Of a stretch of DNA of 23,366 nt, positions 3,359 to 10,810 are shown in pieces. Below the pieces are notes generated by a model. It was not told the origin of the DNA. It searched no databases and saw nothing but the letters and a program-made list of their open reading frames with translations. The translations under genes were made by a program, and so were the position numbers. Source of the DNA: a virus; the IMG/VR virus record IMGVR_UViG_3300032323_002420, positions 1-23,366 of that record. One strand, given 5' to 3'. The stretch's first letter is position 1; each line of letters starts with the position of its first letter.

Positions 3359-3883
3359 ATGTGGAAACCAGCGGAAAACCTTAATTGGCAGTCAGAAGCT
3401 ACTTGCGCCAAACCTTCTAATAGATACGCTTTAGACTGGTTCTTCTCTAAAGACTTTAAAGAAAAATATGCGGCTAAGAACATGTGCTTTACCTGTCCTG
3501 TGCGCTCAGAATGCCTTCAGTGGGCTCTAGAGCATCGTCAGATCTGGGGTATCTGGGGAGGAAGAGATGAAGTTGATATTCGTAGAGCTCTATCTGTGTC
3601 CTATAACGGTGAAGAAACAAGACGCCGCAGATTCCCTAACTGTCCTTATTGCACAGCTAGACCTTCAAAGTTAGAAACTTCTATTGAACAGCTTCCTAAT
3701 GGTGGTCGTTGGACCACAGCAAAAGTTGTTACATGCACGGAGTGTGGTTTTGCTTGGAGAAGCCGTACTAGTGCAAATGCAGTTGAAGCTTATAAGTTAG
3801 AACGTAATGAAAAGTCTAATAGAAAAACTAAATCTAAAAAATCTTCCTCGTCCAAACCTGTAAGCCTTTCTCCAAAACAGTAA
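3359..3883 (+). CDS. WhiB-like (Wbl) regulator with added C-terminal zinc ribbon, second copy
   Basis: This 174-residue protein has an N-terminal Wbl domain with Cys16, Cys43, Cys46 and Cys52 (C-x26-C-x2-C-x5-C) and the signature GIWGG at residues 64-68, followed by the basic helix RDEVDIRRAL. Unlike standard Wbl proteins of about 80-120 residues it continues with a second four-Cys unit: CPYC at 95-98 and CTEC at 126-129, a zinc-ribbon layout preceded by RRRRF. It ends in a Lys/Ser tail (RKTKSKKSSSS). Expected role: [4Fe-4S]-dependent partner of host sigma factor, with the extra ribbon and tail perhaps contacting DNA or polymerase. It appears leaderless. Its last 50 nt overlap the convergent methyltransferase gene. 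Confidence 0.88.
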   Translation: MWKPAENLNWQSEATCAKPSNRYALDWFFSKDFKEKYAAKNMCFTCPVRSECLQWALEHRQIWGIWGGRDEVDIRRALSVSYNGEETRRRRFPNCPYCTARPSKLETSIEQLPNGGRWTTAKVVTCTECGFAWRSRTSANAVEAYKLERNEKSNRKTKSKKSSSSKPVSLSPKQ

Positions 3884-4409
3884 CTTTGTTTGTGTAAGGG
3901 ATTAAAAATGCATCAATACCAGTTTTTGGCTGATCCATTTTAGGCAAAGAAGATCCCCACATATAATCATCAAAGGCAAGTATTCCTCCGTTGTTTAAGC
4001 AAGAATACCCGTCTAAGCCATCTCTAAGAGCCCAGATTGCATGATGATCTGCATCTACATAAACAAACTCATACTTTTTGTCGTTTGACTTAAAAAATTC
4101 TTTAGTTGTCATTTTCTTTTTTATTAGCTGACCTGAGTCAAGAAAAGGTCTTAACTTTTGATCGTAGGTATCTTCTACGCTTTTCCAGTCCATATCCATA
4201 TGCTCTTCTTCTTCAGAGCCTTCCCATGTGTCAACATCTGTCAAAGTTGACTCTGGGTGGGTAAGAACATTATCAAAAAGCCATACTGAAGCATCTCCTG
4301 TGTATGCTCCTAATTGAAGAAAATCTACCTTTACATCTTTATACACAGGTAGAAATTTAGAAAAGTTATGAATTGCTCCACCTTCAATAAACCAATTAGG
4401 GTATGTCAT
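3834..4409 (-). CDS. Class I SAM-dependent methyltransferase (Methyltransf_24-like)
   Basis: This 191-residue protein has class I methyltransferase features. Motif I is LQLGAYTGDAS (residues 31-41), which binds S-adenosylmethionine. An acidic DVDTW around 58-62 fits the ribose-binding position. VYVDADHHAIWALRD (117-131) and GGILAFDDYMW (141-151) resemble the D-x-DH and G-G-x-x-x-x-DDY segments of metal-assisted O-methyltransferases such as the CmcI/TylF type. Its first four bases overlap the end of the GT2 gene (ATGA), so the two are translationally coupled and may act on the same sugar-bearing product. The acceptor is unknown. It overlaps the second Wbl gene tail-to-tail by 50 nt. Confidence 0.8.
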   Translation of the reverse strand: MTYPNWFIEGGAIHNFSKFLPVYKDVKVDFLQLGAYTGDASVWLFDNVLTHPESTLTDVDTWEGSEEEEHMDMDWKSVEDTYDQKLRPFLDSGQLIKKKMTTKEFFKSNDKKYEFVYVDADHHAIWALRDGLDGYSCLNNGGILAFDDYMWGSSLPKMDQPKTGIDAFLIPYTNKVTVLEKGLQVWTRKIF

Positions 4410-5467
4410 GCTTTTTGCTCGCAGAATGCTAAGTTATTAGAAAGTCGTTCCTTGTGCTCAGGGGTGGCAATCTCTAAAGCAGCTTTGGCATGGACAACTG
4501 CATCTTGATATCTTCCTAAGTTGTAAGCAGCAATTGCCGCCATATCGTGCGGTGTATGTCCCCAAGCCTCTGCTTCACAGAGATACTCCATAGGCTTAAC
4601 AGTAATTGCTAAAGCTTGAGTTGCTACGTCATAACACTCTTCCCATTTACCGATTGAGTAGTAGTGCTGAGCGAGATCAACATATGCTTCTCTGCGCTCT
4701 GGAGCTTCTTTTATTGCCATGGTAAACCATAGTTCTGCATCTTCTTTAGAAAGCTTTCCTATAAAACGCATAGATGCTGCACGCTCTGGTGCCCATCTTG
4801 CGGTGTGTAGCTGTAGATGACGTTTAAATTCTTCTTTTGCTTCATCAAGTCTATTGTAGAAATATAGCTCTCTTGCGTAGTAGAAAGCATTTCTGTCATC
4901 GTATGGATCTTCTTCAACAGAAGTTTTTAGTAAATCTAAATACTGTCCTCGTGATTTTGTGTTATCTGCGTGGTGCTCCATAGTCGCTTGAGTCCAATAC
5001 TGAACCTCTTGCATGCGATCAGGCACTAAAACTTCATGTACTGGATGCTTCCAACGGTATCCGTGACGAGCATGGATTTTATCTCCGCCAAAGGTAAGTC
5101 CGGGAGTTCCGTCTTCATTCCAATTCCAAATATAATTGTATCTAGGGCGAGTGGCTTTAGCTTCAAATGCTTTCTCAAGCTCTGCCTTCCATCCCGGCAA
5201 CATAATCTCATCCATATCTAGTGGGATGCAATAGTCAATATCAGCTGGAAGTAGTCCTAAAGAAACATTTCTTGCTTGATCGAAGCGCCAAGGTCTTACA
5301 CAGATAGATACAACATTAATCCCTAAAGCAAGAGCCTTCTCAACAGTCTTATCTGTTGATCCCGTATCAGCTATGAGTAGGTAGTCTGCTTCATCTTTTA
5401 CAGAGTTATACCAAGTCTCAACAAATTTTTCTTCGTTGAGGGCTATTGTGTAGACAGCTACTTTCAT
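4406..5467 (-). CDS. Family 2 glycosyltransferase with TPR-like C-terminal region
   Basis: This 353-residue protein begins with the GT-A pattern of GT2 enzymes: TIALNEEKFVETW (7-19), then ADTGSTDKT (33-41) for nucleotide-sugar binding, and the metal-binding D-x-D as PLDMDE (82-87). HPVHE at 141-145 fits the acceptor-side region. From about residue 190 the chain turns into helical pairs with TPR spacing (NAFYYARELYFYNRLDEAKE, AYVDLAQHYYSIGKWEECYD, AAYNLGRYQDAVVHAKAAL). That combination is known from bacterial SunS-like and phage glycosyltransferases, where the TPR part can bind a peptide or protein acceptor. The ATG has GGAGAG 8 nt upstream. It is the first gene of a two-gene reverse unit with the methyltransferase. 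Confidence 0.88.
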   Translation of the reverse strand: MKVAVYTIALNEEKFVETWYNSVKDEADYLLIADTGSTDKTVEKALALGINVVSICVRPWRFDQARNVSLGLLPADIDYCIPLDMDEIMLPGWKAELEKAFEAKATRPRYNYIWNWNEDGTPGLTFGGDKIHARHGYRWKHPVHEVLVPDRMQEVQYWTQATMEHHADNTKSRGQYLDLLKTSVEEDPYDDRNAFYYARELYFYNRLDEAKEEFKRHLQLHTARWAPERAASMRFIGKLSKEDAELWFTMAIKEAPERREAYVDLAQHYYSIGKWEECYDVATQALAITVKPMEYLCEAEAWGHTPHDMAAIAAYNLGRYQDAVVHAKAALEIATPEHKERLSNNLAFCEQKA

Positions 5468-5496
5468 ATTTTATCTCTCCATCACCTATTTTTATT

Positions 5497-5502
5497 ATTA
5501 TA
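5497..5502 (-). promoter_or_regulatory. Possible -10 element for the GT2/methyltransferase unit
   Basis: Read on the reverse strand, TATAAT lies 29 nt upstream of the GT2 start codon, giving an expected leader of about 20 nt that contains the GGAGAG ribosome site. No good -35 hexamer is visible at the normal spacing. The 177-nt divergent gap (5468-5644) must hold promoters for both directions, and this is the best reverse-strand candidate I see. Confidence 0.35.
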
Positions 5503-5561
5503 TAAACCTACCACATTAGAGTTAGCATACCAGAATCCTTTCATAAATCTTGCCTAATCTA

Positions 5562-5637
5562 TAAGATCTGTACAAATAAAATGTTTATAATAAAACTTAA
5601 AAGATATAGTTGCTCTATAGTCAATTAAGATCTATAC
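5562..5637. repeat. Direct repeat TAAGATCTRTAC in the divergent promoter gap
   Basis: TAAGATCTGTAC at 5562-5573 and TAAGATCTATAC at 5626-5637 differ at one base, are 64 nt apart, and contain the palindrome AGATCT. The second copy overlaps the proposed -10 (TATACT) of the forward promoter, so this could be an operator pair controlling the divergent units. It may also be chance similarity in AT-rich DNA. Confidence 0.3.
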
Positions 5638-5638
5638 T
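5605..5638 (+). promoter_or_regulatory. Putative leaderless promoter for the forward DUF6065-like unit
   Basis: TTGCTC at 5610-5615 and TATACT at 5633-5638 are separated by a 17-nt spacer, a good primary-sigma promoter. The -10 ends 6 nt before the ATG at 5645, so the transcript should start at or next to the start codon. No ribosome site is present, consistent with leaderless translation, which is common in Actinobacteria. TATAGT occurs at 5605-5610 and 5616-5621, as it does upstream of the second Wbl gene. Confidence 0.5.
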
Positions 5639-5644
5639 GAACTT

Positions 5645-6367
5645 ATGAAAAAGCATATAATTAAATTTAAAGCAATTGACTCATATGCTATGAATGTGGC
5701 TATGCCCCCAGAACCAGCTTCAAATTATGTACCTAAATGGTGGAAAAATATGGAAGCTTTTACATCAGATAAGCTTCTTTCTAAAGAAGGATCATCTAGA
5801 TTCTATCCTCACGTTACATCTAAAAAATGTTTTCCAATGATTGATGCTATGACAGCTGGATATATTATTCCACTTTGGGCAGATCTAGAAGTTTCTTATG
5901 TTGGAGAAGATACTGAGCCTACTGTTACTTGGCTTACTGATAGAGCAGTAGTGACTTCTTGGGCTAAAGAGTTTACAGAAGATATGGAAAAACCAGACGA
6001 TTGTGCAGGTATTGCTTTTAAATTAAGTAATCAGTTTATTATTGAAACACCAGCAGGGTGGTCTTCTTTGTTTATTCATCCTATAGGATACCCTAATCTT
6101 CCCTTTAGATCTATAGCAGGGGTAGTTGACACCGATAAACTAAAAACAGACATTAATCAACCATTCTGGATTAAAAAAGGTTTTACAGGGGTTATTCCTC
6201 AGGGGACTCCAATAGCTCAAGTTATACCTTTTCAAAGACAAGATTGGGAATCTACAGTTGAAGAAATGGAAAAAGATGCTCACTACTTTAACCATCAAAA
6301 ATTTTTAAAAACAAAAGCTCAGGGGGCTTATGGCTTGTATCAAAGAGTGAAGAAGTCTTTTAAATGA
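5645..6367 (+). CDS. DUF6065-like protein A, paralogue of the reverse copy at 8118-8843
   Basis: This 240-residue protein is of unknown function. It shares a clear pattern with the reverse-strand neighbour: ASNYVPKWW (25-33), KKCFPMIDAMTAGY (60-73) followed by LWADLEV, TVTWL (93-97), ETPAGWSSLFIHP (134-146), LPFRSIAGVVDTD (152-164), and GTPIAQVIPFQRQDWES (187-203). The conserved Cys-x3-D and G-T-P-I-A-Q-x-x-P segments suggest a soluble enzyme-like or binding fold. I associate this pattern with DUF6065, tentatively. The Pro/Trp-rich N-terminus and lack of a signal peptide point to the cytoplasm. It is leaderless and overlaps the next gene by ATGA. Together with the halogenase-linked copy it suggests a role in the same pathway. 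Confidence 0.65.
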   Translation: MKKHIIKFKAIDSYAMNVAMPPEPASNYVPKWWKNMEAFTSDKLLSKEGSSRFYPHVTSKKCFPMIDAMTAGYIIPLWADLEVSYVGEDTEPTVTWLTDRAVVTSWAKEFTEDMEKPDDCAGIAFKLSNQFIIETPAGWSSLFIHPIGYPNLPFRSIAGVVDTDKLKTDINQPFWIKKGFTGVIPQGTPIAQVIPFQRQDWESTVEEMEKDAHYFNHQKFLKTKAQGAYGLYQRVKKSFK

Positions 6368-6642
6368 ATTTTGAGTGGATTCAAGCCCTAAAAACTATGG
6401 GCACAAAAAAGTATTGGACAAAACCTAACACAGTTGAGTTTTTTGCTTTTGTAGCAAAAGCAATAATTATTATTCCAGGACTGCTATTTGGTATTCAAAT
6501 ATGGTGGTTATACATATTTGCTTTAGTCTCAAGTCTGGCCTTAATATGGTCTTCAACTGTAAAAACTATACCTACACTTATTTGGTTCAACATACTCTGG
6601 AGTATCCTAGCTTCAGTAGCTATATTGAAACAATTCTATTAG
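6364..6642 (+). CDS. Small multi-pass membrane protein
   Basis: This 92-residue protein overlaps the preceding gene by 4 nt (ATGA). After a short polar N-terminus (EWIQALKTMGTKKYWTKP) it is mostly hydrophobic, with likely membrane segments around residues 26-53 (FFAFVAKAIIIIPGLLFG and the WWLYIFALV stretch, perhaps two close helices) and around 70-87 (IPTLIWFNILWSILASVA). It fits an inner-membrane protein with two to three helices; basic residues before the first helix suggest a cytoplasmic N-terminus. Coupling to the DUF6065-like gene suggests a partner function such as export or anchoring, but a holin-like or immunity role cannot be excluded. Its 3' end overlaps the convergent halogenase by 23 nt. 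Confidence 0.65.
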   Translation: MNFEWIQALKTMGTKKYWTKPNTVEFFAFVAKAIIIIPGLLFGIQIWWLYIFALVSSLALIWSSTVKTIPTLIWFNILWSILASVAILKQFY

Positions 6643-8116
6643 CAGGAACTATTTCAAACTTAGAAAAAACTGTTTCTTCTTTAAAGTCATAGTAACTAGC
6701 AAATAGTTTATATTCCACTTCGGCAGAACCATATAAATTATGTTTTTCTAATGTTTGTTTTGCAATTTTTGGGTCTATAAAATCTAATCCAGATAAAATC
6801 CAGTTCCATAAATGAGAAGATGAGCCCCACCTAGAGTTAGCGTAATGTATAGCGCTCGGTACTTGAGTCTTACACCTTTCTATAGTATCGGCAACAAAAG
6901 GGGTGATAACTTCTCCAGTTTTAATATACTTCCAAAACTCTGAATCATCTCTTCCACCTAAATAATGTAAAACAATAAAATCTCTATACTCGTCATATAC
7001 ATCCGTGATAATTTTATTGTAGGTTTTTATATTTACTTCAGTTGCTGTTTTTTCAACAGTCACGTCTAGATACTCTTTTGCAAATATTAAAAGCTGCAGA
7101 ATAGTAGAATGTATTGATGTAGCTTCTAAAGGCTCGCTAAAAGCTCCAGCTAACCCTGTAGCTAAACAATTACCACTCCACAACTGATCTAACCTGCCTG
7201 AGTCAAATTTAAGATGACGAATTGGTTGTATTTTTTTCCCTAAAAAAGTTTCAACTTCTTCTTGTGCCTCATCCTCTGAAAGAAAATTAGAGTTATACAC
7301 ATAACCACATCCTTTTCTTGTTGTTAAAGGGATATCCCATAGCCAGCCAGAAGAAAGTGCAGTTGAAGTTGTTAAAGGCTCTACAATCTCTGTAGATAAA
7401 GGGTCATACTCAACTATAAATGGCATAGCTCTGTCTGCAGTAAGATTTTTAGAATAGGACTTCCATCCTACTCCTAACTTATTCATTAAAACTCTTGCAA
7501 ACCCCGTACAGTCAATAAAAAAATCTCCGCTAATAGTTTGATTATTATCTAAAACTATACTTTCAATTGTTCCATTGCTATTAACTTTTACGTCTTTAAT
7601 TAATGAGTCTATATGTGTAACTAAATTGTCTTTTAAAAGTTTTTCTTTAAAAAAATTTCCAACTTTTACAGCATCAAAATGAAATCCATGCCCACCTGAA
7701 GGCATTCTTTTTCTATCATAGGATTGTCCTATATGAGAAGATAAATAGGCTTTTTTATTTCCATATTTTGATATAACATAATTGAAAGTAGGATCTGGAG
7801 ATGATTGTATAGACTTACTTGAGTCTAAAGGAGCGAAGTAAAAACTTTTTGCATCATTACCCCAGTTGGCATGTTTAATCCCCATTTTTATTGTTGAGTC
7901 TGTTTTTTCAAAAAAATCGTCTAAAGAATCATTACGACCCCAAATATAACCAGTAACAATATCAAAAAGAAGACCAGTTGAGCCTTCTCCTGCACCAATA
8001 ATTCCTATTGATGATGATTCTACAACTGTAATATTATGTTTTTTTGGTTGAGTATTAGAAATAATGTATGCTGCAAGCCATCCAGCAGTTCCACCACCGC
8101 ACACAACAATGTTCAT
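6620..8116 (-). CDS. prnA-like: Flavin-dependent tryptophan-halogenase-like enzyme
   Basis: This 498-residue protein has the landmarks of flavin-dependent halogenases. The FAD-binding loop is GGGTAGW (7-13), with GAGEGST (41-47) after the first domain. A lysine in STIKMGIKHANW (Lys77) matches the catalytic Lys of PrnA. The halogenase signature WxWxIP is present as WLWDIP (258-263), followed by GYVYNSNF. AFSEPLEATSIHST (325-338) contains Glu331, matching the second catalytic Glu. These enzymes use FADH2, O2 and halide to form HOCl or HOBr, delivered through a tunnel to the Lys. Start: Met at 8116 with a plausible AAGGA, one base after the upstream stop, not the longer frame to 8164. Substrate is unknown; a flavin reductase must come from the host. 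Cyanophage relatives are known. Confidence 0.9.
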   Translation of the reverse strand: MNIVVCGGGTAGWLAAYIISNTQPKKHNITVVESSSIGIIGAGEGSTGLLFDIVTGYIWGRNDSLDDFFEKTDSTIKMGIKHANWGNDAKSFYFAPLDSSKSIQSSPDPTFNYVISKYGNKKAYLSSHIGQSYDRKRMPSGGHGFHFDAVKVGNFFKEKLLKDNLVTHIDSLIKDVKVNSNGTIESIVLDNNQTISGDFFIDCTGFARVLMNKLGVGWKSYSKNLTADRAMPFIVEYDPLSTEIVEPLTTSTALSSGWLWDIPLTTRKGCGYVYNSNFLSEDEAQEEVETFLGKKIQPIRHLKFDSGRLDQLWSGNCLATGLAGAFSEPLEATSIHSTILQLLIFAKEYLDVTVEKTATEVNIKTYNKIITDVYDEYRDFIVLHYLGGRDDSEFWKYIKTGEVITPFVADTIERCKTQVPSAIHYANSRWGSSSHLWNWILSGLDFIDPKIAKQTLEKHNLYGSAEVEYKLFASYYDFKEETVFSKFEIVPANRIVSI

Positions 8117-8117
8117 A

Positions 8118-8843
8118 TTATTTATATTCCTTTTTTGTCCAATGTATTTTTTTATATAAACCACCTAATGATCTTCTAGAATCATAAGATTGTTGAATTG
8201 CTTCTTGTTCAAGGTTTTTATCTCCTATTTCAGATTCCCAAGACTCTCTTTTATATGGGAACAACTGAGCGATAGGGGTACCAGCTTTTATAATTCCCTC
8301 AAAATCACTTCTTAAAAAGAAAGGAATAATTCCTGCAGGAAAATAAGAGTCGCTATCAATTATTCCAGAAAGAGTAGTAAACGGAAGATCAAATCTATTT
8401 TGCGGATGAGTCAGTAGAACGCTGTAACCTTTGGGAACTTTGATAGCAAATTGAGAAACCCAACCATAATGAACGCTATCGTGTCCTGCTGGACGAGGTA
8501 TGTTAGCCCCAGAACGTTGATCTCTTACTACTAATGGGTCTGGTGGAACAAGCCATGTTAGGTGTGCTTCACCATCCACAGACCTTGTTACTTGTATATC
8601 TGTCCACAGCTCTACCATATATCCAGATGTCATAACATCTAAAAAAGAAACGCAATGTTTCAATCCTTGATTAGCAGAATAGTTCTCAATCTGAGGCTTA
8701 TCTGAGCCCAGCCATCTTTCAGATTGTGTGTACCAGCTGGGAAGATATGTAGAAGATTTTTTAGGTTCTGGAAGTTTAATATCTACGTTTTGAGATATTT
8801 GACCTAAAGTTCCTTGTCCTATAAAAGTTATTTTTTTAGTCAT
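8118..8843 (-). CDS. DUF6065-like protein B, coupled to the halogenase
   Basis: This 241-residue protein is a diverged paralogue of the forward copy at 5645-6367. Shared segments are KSSTYLPSWY (29-38), LKHCVSFLDVMTSGYMVELW (61-80), HLTWL, KVPKGYSVLLTHP (135-147), LPFTTLSGIIDSD (153-165) and GTPIAQLFPYKRESWES (188-204). The Cys64 and the GTPIAQ block are retained. Its ATG is preceded by AAGGA at good spacing and its stop lies one base before the halogenase start, so the two are translationally coupled and probably function together, for example in substrate handling or as a partner of the halogenase. The family call is tentative and the activity unknown. It lies 32 nt downstream of the fibre operon. 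Confidence 0.65.
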   Translation of the reverse strand: MTKKITFIGQGTLGQISQNVDIKLPEPKKSSTYLPSWYTQSERWLGSDKPQIENYSANQGLKHCVSFLDVMTSGYMVELWTDIQVTRSVDGEAHLTWLVPPDPLVVRDQRSGANIPRPAGHDSVHYGWVSQFAIKVPKGYSVLLTHPQNRFDLPFTTLSGIIDSDSYFPAGIIPFFLRSDFEGIIKAGTPIAQLFPYKRESWESEIGDKNLEQEAIQQSYDSRRSLGGLYKKIHWTKKEYK

Positions 8844-8875: not shown

Positions 8876-9511
8876 TTAGTAAGGAGTTGCCCCACTAAAA
8901 CTAGCATTAGCTGATCCTGTCCAAAAACCGTTACTGCCTCCGTCAAAGTACGACTTTAGCGTAGTTGACTTCTCTAGCATAACAGAATCCACATAAAAAA
9001 TCTCTCCTGCAGTAGTTGAGCCTGTAACTACTCTAATAATCATAAAATTTGCAGAACTTTGCTTTGTCACGGAAGCACCTAAACGCACCCAGTTACCTGT
9101 ATATGATAAAGATTGAAGGCCAATGTTTGTTGCCGAAACTGTGCTAACAGAGTTCTGTTCCTCATACTGTAACTGACGTATAAAATAGGTTGCTGGTGAA
9201 TTACCGCTGGCAAGTTTTACATACGCACTTATATAATAAGTACCTTCTCCTGCTACTAAAGGAATCATAGATCCTTCGTTACCAAACTGAGCAGCTGACC
9301 CAGAGGCGTTAGTAACAGCTAGAGATGCAGAACCAGTATTAGATTCACCTGTTGTTCTAGCAATAGTCCCTCCTGCAGTTGCAACCCAATTCGTTGTATC
9401 TACCTCAAAAGATGGGTTAGTAATATAATTAACTCTATATCCAAGTGCTGCAGGTTCGGCACGGTTCTTTAAAAACCCAGCTCCACTAGATATTCCTAAA
9501 CTTAATGGCAT
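8876..9511 (-). CDS. Putative tail protein with carbohydrate-binding jelly-roll domain
   Basis: This 211-residue protein has a short N-terminal anchor-like segment (MPLSLGISSGAGFLK) and then NYITNPSFEVDTTNW (28-42), the typical entry to CBM4/9-like galactose-binding beta-sandwiches. TYYISAYVKLASG (91-103) and a C-terminal strand region with EIFYVDSVMLEKS complete the fold. The last residues (YFDGGSNGFWTGSANAS and onward) are a common closing motif in phage and bacterial adhesins. It probably sits on the tail tip or fibre and binds host glycans. The ATG follows TTAGGAGC, and the gene begins 12 nt downstream of the collagen-like fibre gene's stop in the same operon. Confidence 0.75.
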   Translation of the reverse strand: MPLSLGISSGAGFLKNRAEPAALGYRVNYITNPSFEVDTTNWVATAGGTIARTTGESNTGSASLAVTNASGSAAQFGNEGSMIPLVAGEGTYYISAYVKLASGNSPATYFIRQLQYEEQNSVSTVSATNIGLQSLSYTGNWVRLGASVTKQSSANFMIIRVVTGSTTAGEIFYVDSVMLEKSTTLKSYFDGGSNGFWTGSANASFSGATPY

Positions 9512-9523
9512 ACTTGCTCCTAA

Positions 9524-10810
9524 CTATGTGAGGGCTACGTCGCCAGCTAGAACCCATTCGTCTGTTCCAATTTTAATAATAGATGCAGTTGAGTAGGTAG
9601 CTCTTAGTTTATTTGTAGGTGTAGATCTAAGAGTAACTCCAGTATCACCGCTAACAGTTACTTGACCTGCTCCATATTGCATAATGTCAACTCTTTGTCC
9701 TATTGAATATGCTGCTGCAGCATTTGTAGGGATGATAATTGACATTGCTGTACCTTTTGTACATCTAATAAGTTTTCCAGCATCACCTAAAACTAAAGTA
9801 TATGTATCAGATTTAACTTCGATTGTTTGAGCTGTATCCCAAGTTCCTTGTGCACCTGTAGGGCCACTAGCGCCTGTCGGACCAGTTACCGCTGCACCAG
9901 TAGGTCCAGTAGGACCAGTTACAGTTGACGGTGCTCCAGTAGGACCAGTTGCCCCAGGTAATCCTTGAGGACCAGTGGCTCCTGTTGCTCCAGTAGGTCC
10001 TGTTAATCCTGTTGGACCAGTAGCTCCCGTAGGACCCCCTGAAGGACCTGTTGGGCCAGGAACTGTGCTTGCAGCTCCAGTTGGCCCTGTAGGACCTGTA
10101 ATACTTGCACCAGTAGGGCCAGTTGGACCAACAAAAGGGCCAGCATTGCTCCATGCCGAGTTTAAATCGTTCCAAATATAAAGATTAGTACCTACTAGAT
10201 ATGAATCTCCAATTGATGCAGTTGGGTTATCTGCTTCAAGTAGTTCAACTGTTGCATAAGATCCAAGAACAGAAACACCTGATCCTTGTGGACCTGTAGG
10301 TCCAGAAACTCCTGTAGGACCAGTTGGTCCTTGGGGACCTGTAGGTCCAGTTGGTGCAATTGTAGCTACTGTATTAAAACCACTTCCTGTGTAAAGTGAT
10401 ACAGCATTAGATGAACTATTTACCCAGATGTCTCCAACTTGAGGAGATCCTGGCTGTGTTGATTGATAAACAATATTTGATCTACCACTTGATTCATATG
10501 CTGCAGTGGCAGAAAAAGACGCATTAGCAGTGCTTGCTCCAACATAAATTTTATCGCCAACAGCTAATGCAAATCTAAATGTTTCAAAAGACTGTCCTAC
10601 TCCAATAAGCAAACTACTGACAATATAAACACGAGTGTTAGGGTTTCCTGGAGACTCGACTGGTTCAATAAAAACAGTTGCCGTTAAATCTACAGCACCT
10701 TTATTTGCAATAATTACTGAAGCAACGCATGCAACATCTGCAGTAGCAAGTTCTGTAAATGTACTTACAAAAGCAGCAGGAGAAACTAATCCTAAACGTT
10801 TTACTGGCAT
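9524..10810 (-). CDS. Collagen-like tail fibre protein
   Basis: This 428-residue protein has four parts. Residues 1-105 form an N-terminal module ([36 protein letters not shown]) shared with the 460-aa fibre. A short collagen-like tract (153-177) precedes a small spacer ([17 protein letters not shown]). The main collagen tract (228-322) is dominated by G-P-T triplets, with interruptions such as [10 protein letters not shown]-terminal beta domain (327-426) follows, a likely receptor-binding or trimer-capping tip. Collagen triplets without hydroxyproline form triple helices in phage fibres. The start has AAAGGAGC upstream, and its first bases overlap a 49-aa membrane protein gene. Confidence 0.85.
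9845..10354 (-). repeat. Collagen-like G-P-T triplet tracts of the 428-aa fibre
   Basis: Two tracts, at 10280-10354 and 9845-10129, encode tandem Gly-x-y triplets, mostly Gly-Pro-Thr. On the plus strand they read as repeated GGACCAGTAGGTCC-like DNA, which creates misleading open frames on the opposite strand. Such DNA is prone to recombination and length change. Confidence 0.85.

Follow-up and report, generated by a model that had tools for sequence, protein, structure and literature searches.

The stretch of DNA analysed here, a 23,366-base virus record (the window), carries a flavin-dependent halogenase gene (HAL) with two homologous genes, A and B, on either side of it. The question raised by this locus is whether the two proteins serve the halogenase. 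A preliminary description had proposed that they arose by duplication followed by specialisation, one copy as a partner of the halogenase and the other for export or self-protection. Comparative analysis revealed that A and B are not freshly duplicated halogenase helpers, since they are anciently separated and their family usually occurs without a halogenase.

Gene organisation of the locus

The genes are arranged in the order WhiB (+), methyltransferase MT (-), glycosyltransferase GT (-), A (+), small membrane protein gene T (+), HAL (-), B (-), CBM-like and collagen-like fibre genes (-), and tail genes (-) (Table 1). RNA families and tRNAs were searched for and none was found. The WhiB gene, the collagen-like fibres and synteny with the Actinomycetia phage DSL-LC01 suggest that the host is a freshwater actinobacterium; DSL-LC01 is an assembled phage from Dishui Lake with a predicted Actinomycetia host (PMC10611076). 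The collagen-like fibre encoded at 9524-10810 is rich in Gly-Pro-Thr triplets and adjoins a glycosyltransferase, and may be a Thr-glycosylated fibre.

Table 1. Features of the halogenase locus (positions in the window)
Feature	Position	Strand	Description
MT	3834..4409	-	SAM methyltransferase (PF13578)
GT	4406..5467	-	glycosyltransferase family 2 with TPR; borders the island
AT-rich block (A, T, HAL)	5468..8117	.	2.65 kb; not in sister phage L007
Possible leaderless promoter	5610..5638	+	TTGCTC-N17-TATACT, read by eye; just before A
A	5645..6367	+	240-aa beta-clip protein (dUTPase fold, predicted); phrog_7084 / DUF6065-like; A clade
T	6364..6642	+	92-aa small membrane protein; overlaps A by ATGA
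HAL	6620..8116	-	flavin-dependent (Trp-type) halogenase; PF04820, 283.6 bits
B	8118..8843	-	241-aa beta-clip protein (dUTPase fold, predicted); phrog_7084; 71% identity to its orthologue in sister phage L007
CBM-like and collagen-like (Gly-Pro-Thr) tail fibre genes	8876..10810	-	upstream of B

HAL has the characters of a Trp-type flavin-dependent halogenase. In addition to the PF04820 match, reading of the sequence found GGGTAGW (GxGxxG), WLWDIP (WxWxIP), KMGIKHANW and PLEATS, the putative catalytic Lys and Glu being assigned by reference to PrnA. Its real start is probably the ATG at 8116 rather than the GTG at 8164, and the stop codon of B (8120-8118) then lies 1 nt away; on the other strand, the overlap of A and T falls at 6364-6367. 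Such spacing fits the translational coupling of B with HAL and of A with T that had been suggested, and makes it plausible, though short of proof. A separate promoter for A and T had also been put forward. A scan of the 177-nt gap before A for the sigma-70 consensus gave no match; the candidate read by eye agrees with the consensus at 8 of 12 positions, which is under the scan threshold. The -10-like TATACT of this candidate (5633-5638) stops 6 nt short of the ATG of A, which would fit a leaderless transcript.

A and B belong to one large phage family

BLASTP alignment of A with B gave 67 identities over 234 positions (29%, full length; 111 bits, E 2e-34), which confirmed the description of two homologues on opposite strands around the halogenase. 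Both proteins matched the phrog_7084 profile over its full length (E 5e-44 for A and 5.5e-40 for B) and are members of one large uncharacterised phage family. The second label given to them, DUF6065-like, was found to be right at the level of profiles. The Pfam profile PF19541 (DUF6065) scored 21.3 bits against A, under its curated cut-off of 26.6, did not match B, and was matched at E<0.01 by 17 of 63 relatives; comparison of the phage family profile (133 members) with the bacterial DUF6065 profile by hhalign gave a probability of 99.2% (E 8.5e-20). The link to DUF6065 is therefore real but remote. In a sample of 240 bacterial genomes (alphaproteobacterial class), DUF6065 was present in 30, with 26 above the cut-off, and among the genomes sampled it was mostly alphaproteobacterial. 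The literature searched contained no mention of DUF6065. A second family, phrog_17480, is located near some of the loci (L151:6278-7024 and L022:9452-10198) and appears to be a more divergent relative.

Predicted fold and conserved residues

AlphaFold2 models, built from an alignment of 62 natural sequences, reached pLDDT 92.6 and pTM 0.87 for B, and pLDDT 95.2 and pTM 0.89 for A. Among the 50 best Foldseek matches in the PDB for each model, the top ones were all dUTPases or dCTP deaminases, nearly all with a probability of 1.00, and the best E values for these predicted models were 1.3e-4 (B) and 3.9e-4 (A). TM-scores were roughly 0.4-0.7 on the target, with maxima of 0.64 for B and 0.73 for A; on the query they were just 0.3-0.4, since an additional N-terminal part and an insert make the family proteins longer. 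The models thus place A and B together in the beta-clip fold of the dUTPase superfamily, with a predicted core in common with dUTPase and dCTP deaminase to which the family adds these two elements. A common fold of the two copies, on which their treatment as paralogues had been made to depend, is supported by the models, and the copies do not fall into unrelated families. The analysis provides a predicted fold, and specific residues to test, for a large family of phages and bacteria that had been uncharacterised.

At the sequence level, neither A nor B matched PF00692 or PF22769 in a Pfam search, and searching PDB sequences with the family profile returned chance matches only. The hhalign comparison of the family with an alphaproteobacterial dUTPase profile was weak (P 0.009, probability 4.5%); the elements aligned in it were P-x-G-Y, G-[IV]-[IV]-D-x-D with motif III, and G-T-P-I-x-Q (GTPIxQ) with motif IV, RIAQ. 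The acid of motif III is present, as GIVDxD aligned with PGTIDsD, and is ~90% conserved. According to the profile alignment and the list of conserved positions, the family is missing the RS (Ser/Arg) of motif II, the Arg of motif IV and the Gly-rich motif V. In dUTPases, these three elements handle the triphosphate. Since they are absent, A and B probably do not carry out ordinary dUTP hydrolysis. The residues that are conserved in the family (B numbering) include Cys64 (100%), Gly74 (99%), Asp163 and Asp165 (~90%) and Arg199 (92%), with Asp69, Asp82 and Tyr230 also strongly conserved; invariance at Cys, Asp, Arg and Tyr positions is suggestive of an enzyme.

Separate histories of the two copies

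Scanning viral contigs with the family alignment turned up 429 stretches that encode a member, and 80 loci from these were retained. In the family tree, A lies within a clade of 11 rows (100/99) and B in the other half of the tree (100/98), so that the two are not each other's nearest relatives as expected of a locally duplicated pair. Forcing A, B and the copy of the sister phage L007 into one clade was rejected by the AU test (p 0.0004). By this phylogeny A and B stand in separate old clades and are ancient out-paralogues, not a recent duplicate pair. Two to four family copies were found in 65 of 117 loci, mostly without a halogenase (some of the contigs are redundant).

L007 is a close sister phage, with an adjacent tail protein 96% and a CBM-like protein 88% identical to those of the window. 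It carries an orthologue of B (dN/dS ~0.13) which is followed after ~36 nt by GT, and HAL, T and A are absent. The three genes therefore form one block between B and GT that is present in one phage and absent from the other. Their GC content is 0.33-0.35, compared with 0.40 for the whole window, and this low GC favours a gain of the block here over a loss in L007, though B is low in GC too (0.36). A search for repeats at the borders of the block found nothing convincing.

Linkage to the halogenase

The family does not regularly co-occur with halogenases. Of 91 loci retrieved by querying with the family, 4 contained a halogenase, as did 2 of 35 whole records that carry the family. Bacterial members near halogenases had been anticipated; none was found beside the 30 bacterial DUF6065 loci checked by phmmer with HAL, a check limited by rough prediction of ORFs in GC-rich DNA. 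On the family tree the 23 halogenase-linked copies are scattered and require 18 changes. That A, B or both are dedicated partners of the halogenase, as substrate carrier, docking protein or flavin and halide handler, accords with the 1-nt spacing of B and HAL and with ~12 loci where a family protein, HAL and T stand together in several orders (e.g. HAL-D-HAL-T with overlapping reading frames in L009), but it is improbable given these counts, the halogenase-free orthologue of B in L007 and the DSL-LC01 halogenase, which occupies the same island with no family member present. Together with the rejection of a joint clade, these data leave the proposal of duplication and specialisation unsupported.

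The halogenase is more closely accompanied by T, which directly adjoins it in 37 of 63 distinct cases. Among loci found with the family as query, T was present in all four with a halogenase and in 2 of the 87 without one. Nor does the family depend on the halogenase for its proximity to T, being nearby for 12 of 40 distinct T genes that have a halogenase and for 5 of the 23 that lack one (odds ratio 1.5, p 0.56). Judged by gene neighbourhood, the halogenase-linked element is T, neither A nor B. It is not universal, being absent from all 14 loci that a search with HAL as query returned.

Matches to T were found in 345 stretches of environmental viral contigs, from which 80 loci, 71-86% identical, were kept (L099-L178); a search of a phage collection of 50,697 records gave no match. 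Environmental phage contigs with T thus number in the hundreds, while the collection searched has none, and attention in looking for partners of freshwater phage halogenases turns from A and B to this small membrane protein. T also occurs in a setting that lacks a halogenase, flanked by a primase gene and an SSB-like gene (names from sequence), and in several halogenase-free loci it lies beside a gene named by eye as AhpD-like (L130:5454-5987). A tandem operon of halogenase, family protein, halogenase and T with overlapping reading frames was seen at L009:3326-7441 and in L088. The small protein preceding cyanophage halogenases was considered as a relative of T and rejected, as it is hydrophilic.

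Possible function of the family

The neighbours of 132 non-redundant copies comprised 75 genes of the family itself, 20 halogenases, 17 GlcNAc-type glycosyltransferases (PF11397), 15 2OG-Fe(II) oxygenases (PF13640) and 15 T genes, which suggests a tie of the family to tailoring enzymes. Because this set resembles tail-adjacent modification islands, we favour, with about even confidence, the reading that A and B are anciently diverged members of one family of repurposed beta-clip accessory proteins in such islands, and not dUTPases. Most likely they would be oligomers in an accessory role, either binding a ligand or acting as enzymes, in support of nearby tailoring enzymes (glycosyltransferases, 2OG-Fe(II) oxygenases, methyltransferases and sometimes halogenases), whose substrate may be the virion fibres or the host envelope. 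B would be part of the island next to the tail genes and A would have come, or been lost, together with the halogenase cassette, the proteins being exchangeable among phages and not dedicated to the halogenase. Tail genes were near 7 of 16 copies of the B group versus 15 of 116 others (p 0.016), a modest difference for a group picked after the tree was seen. A more specific proposal is tentative: PHROG 7084 and DUF6065 might together constitute a new lineage of enzymes within the dUTPase fold, which phages would carry as multi-copy tailoring modules alongside halogenases, glycosyltransferases or 2OG oxygenases for the chemical modification of fibres, envelope or nucleotides, and which is joined here by a halogenase and its linked membrane protein.

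Some copies lie in clusters of replication genes (helicase, primase, SSB), a setting equally compatible with a function on nucleotides. The second-ranked explanation, an unlikely one, is that the family acts on nucleotides as a divergent enzyme like dUTPase or dCTP deaminase, in nucleotide metabolism or DNA base modification. The predicted fold and the motif-III-like acidic pair agree with it, as do the clustered copies, the copy of Halorubrum phage HF2 beside ribonucleotide reductase, and the finding of canonical dUTPase in 0 of 35 and dCTP deaminase in 0 of 21 carrier records, these being raw counts from partial records. Against this, motif II, the motif IV Arg and motif V are missing, many copies adjoin tail fibres and glycosyltransferases, and HF1-group viruses with the gene also list dCTP deaminase (PMC7230728).

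Placed after it, and doubtful, is a non-enzymatic protein of virion or tail assembly. The B group adjoins collagen-like fibres, and beta-clip trimers would suit fibre attachment, but HF2 gene 475 runs in the direction opposite to the tail genes, just four major virion bands (VP1-VP4) have been reported (PMC7230728), A lies outside the tail operon, and the invariant residues look enzymatic.

Comparison with known systems

HF2 gene 475 (L013) represents haloarchaeal tailed viruses in which one family copy lies between ribonucleotide reductase and the tail genes, and these viruses are culturable. HAL belongs to the same enzyme family as the flavin-dependent halogenases of cyanophages and of DSL-LC01. 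The latter phage has the order collagen-HAL-GT-WhiB, as here; unlike the window, it has no A, B or T alongside its halogenase. PHROG 7084, of which A and B are full-length members, carries no assigned function or fold. PF19541, homologous to the phage family by profile comparison, aligns its GIIETD with the phage GIVDxD and constitutes a bacterial branch with E-T-D, with no halogenase alongside in the loci checked. With dUTPase (PF00692) and dCTP deaminase (PF22769), A and B have in common the predicted fold, the motif-III-like acid and a strand like RIAQ, and they differ from both enzymes in the extra N-terminal part, which includes the invariant Cys.
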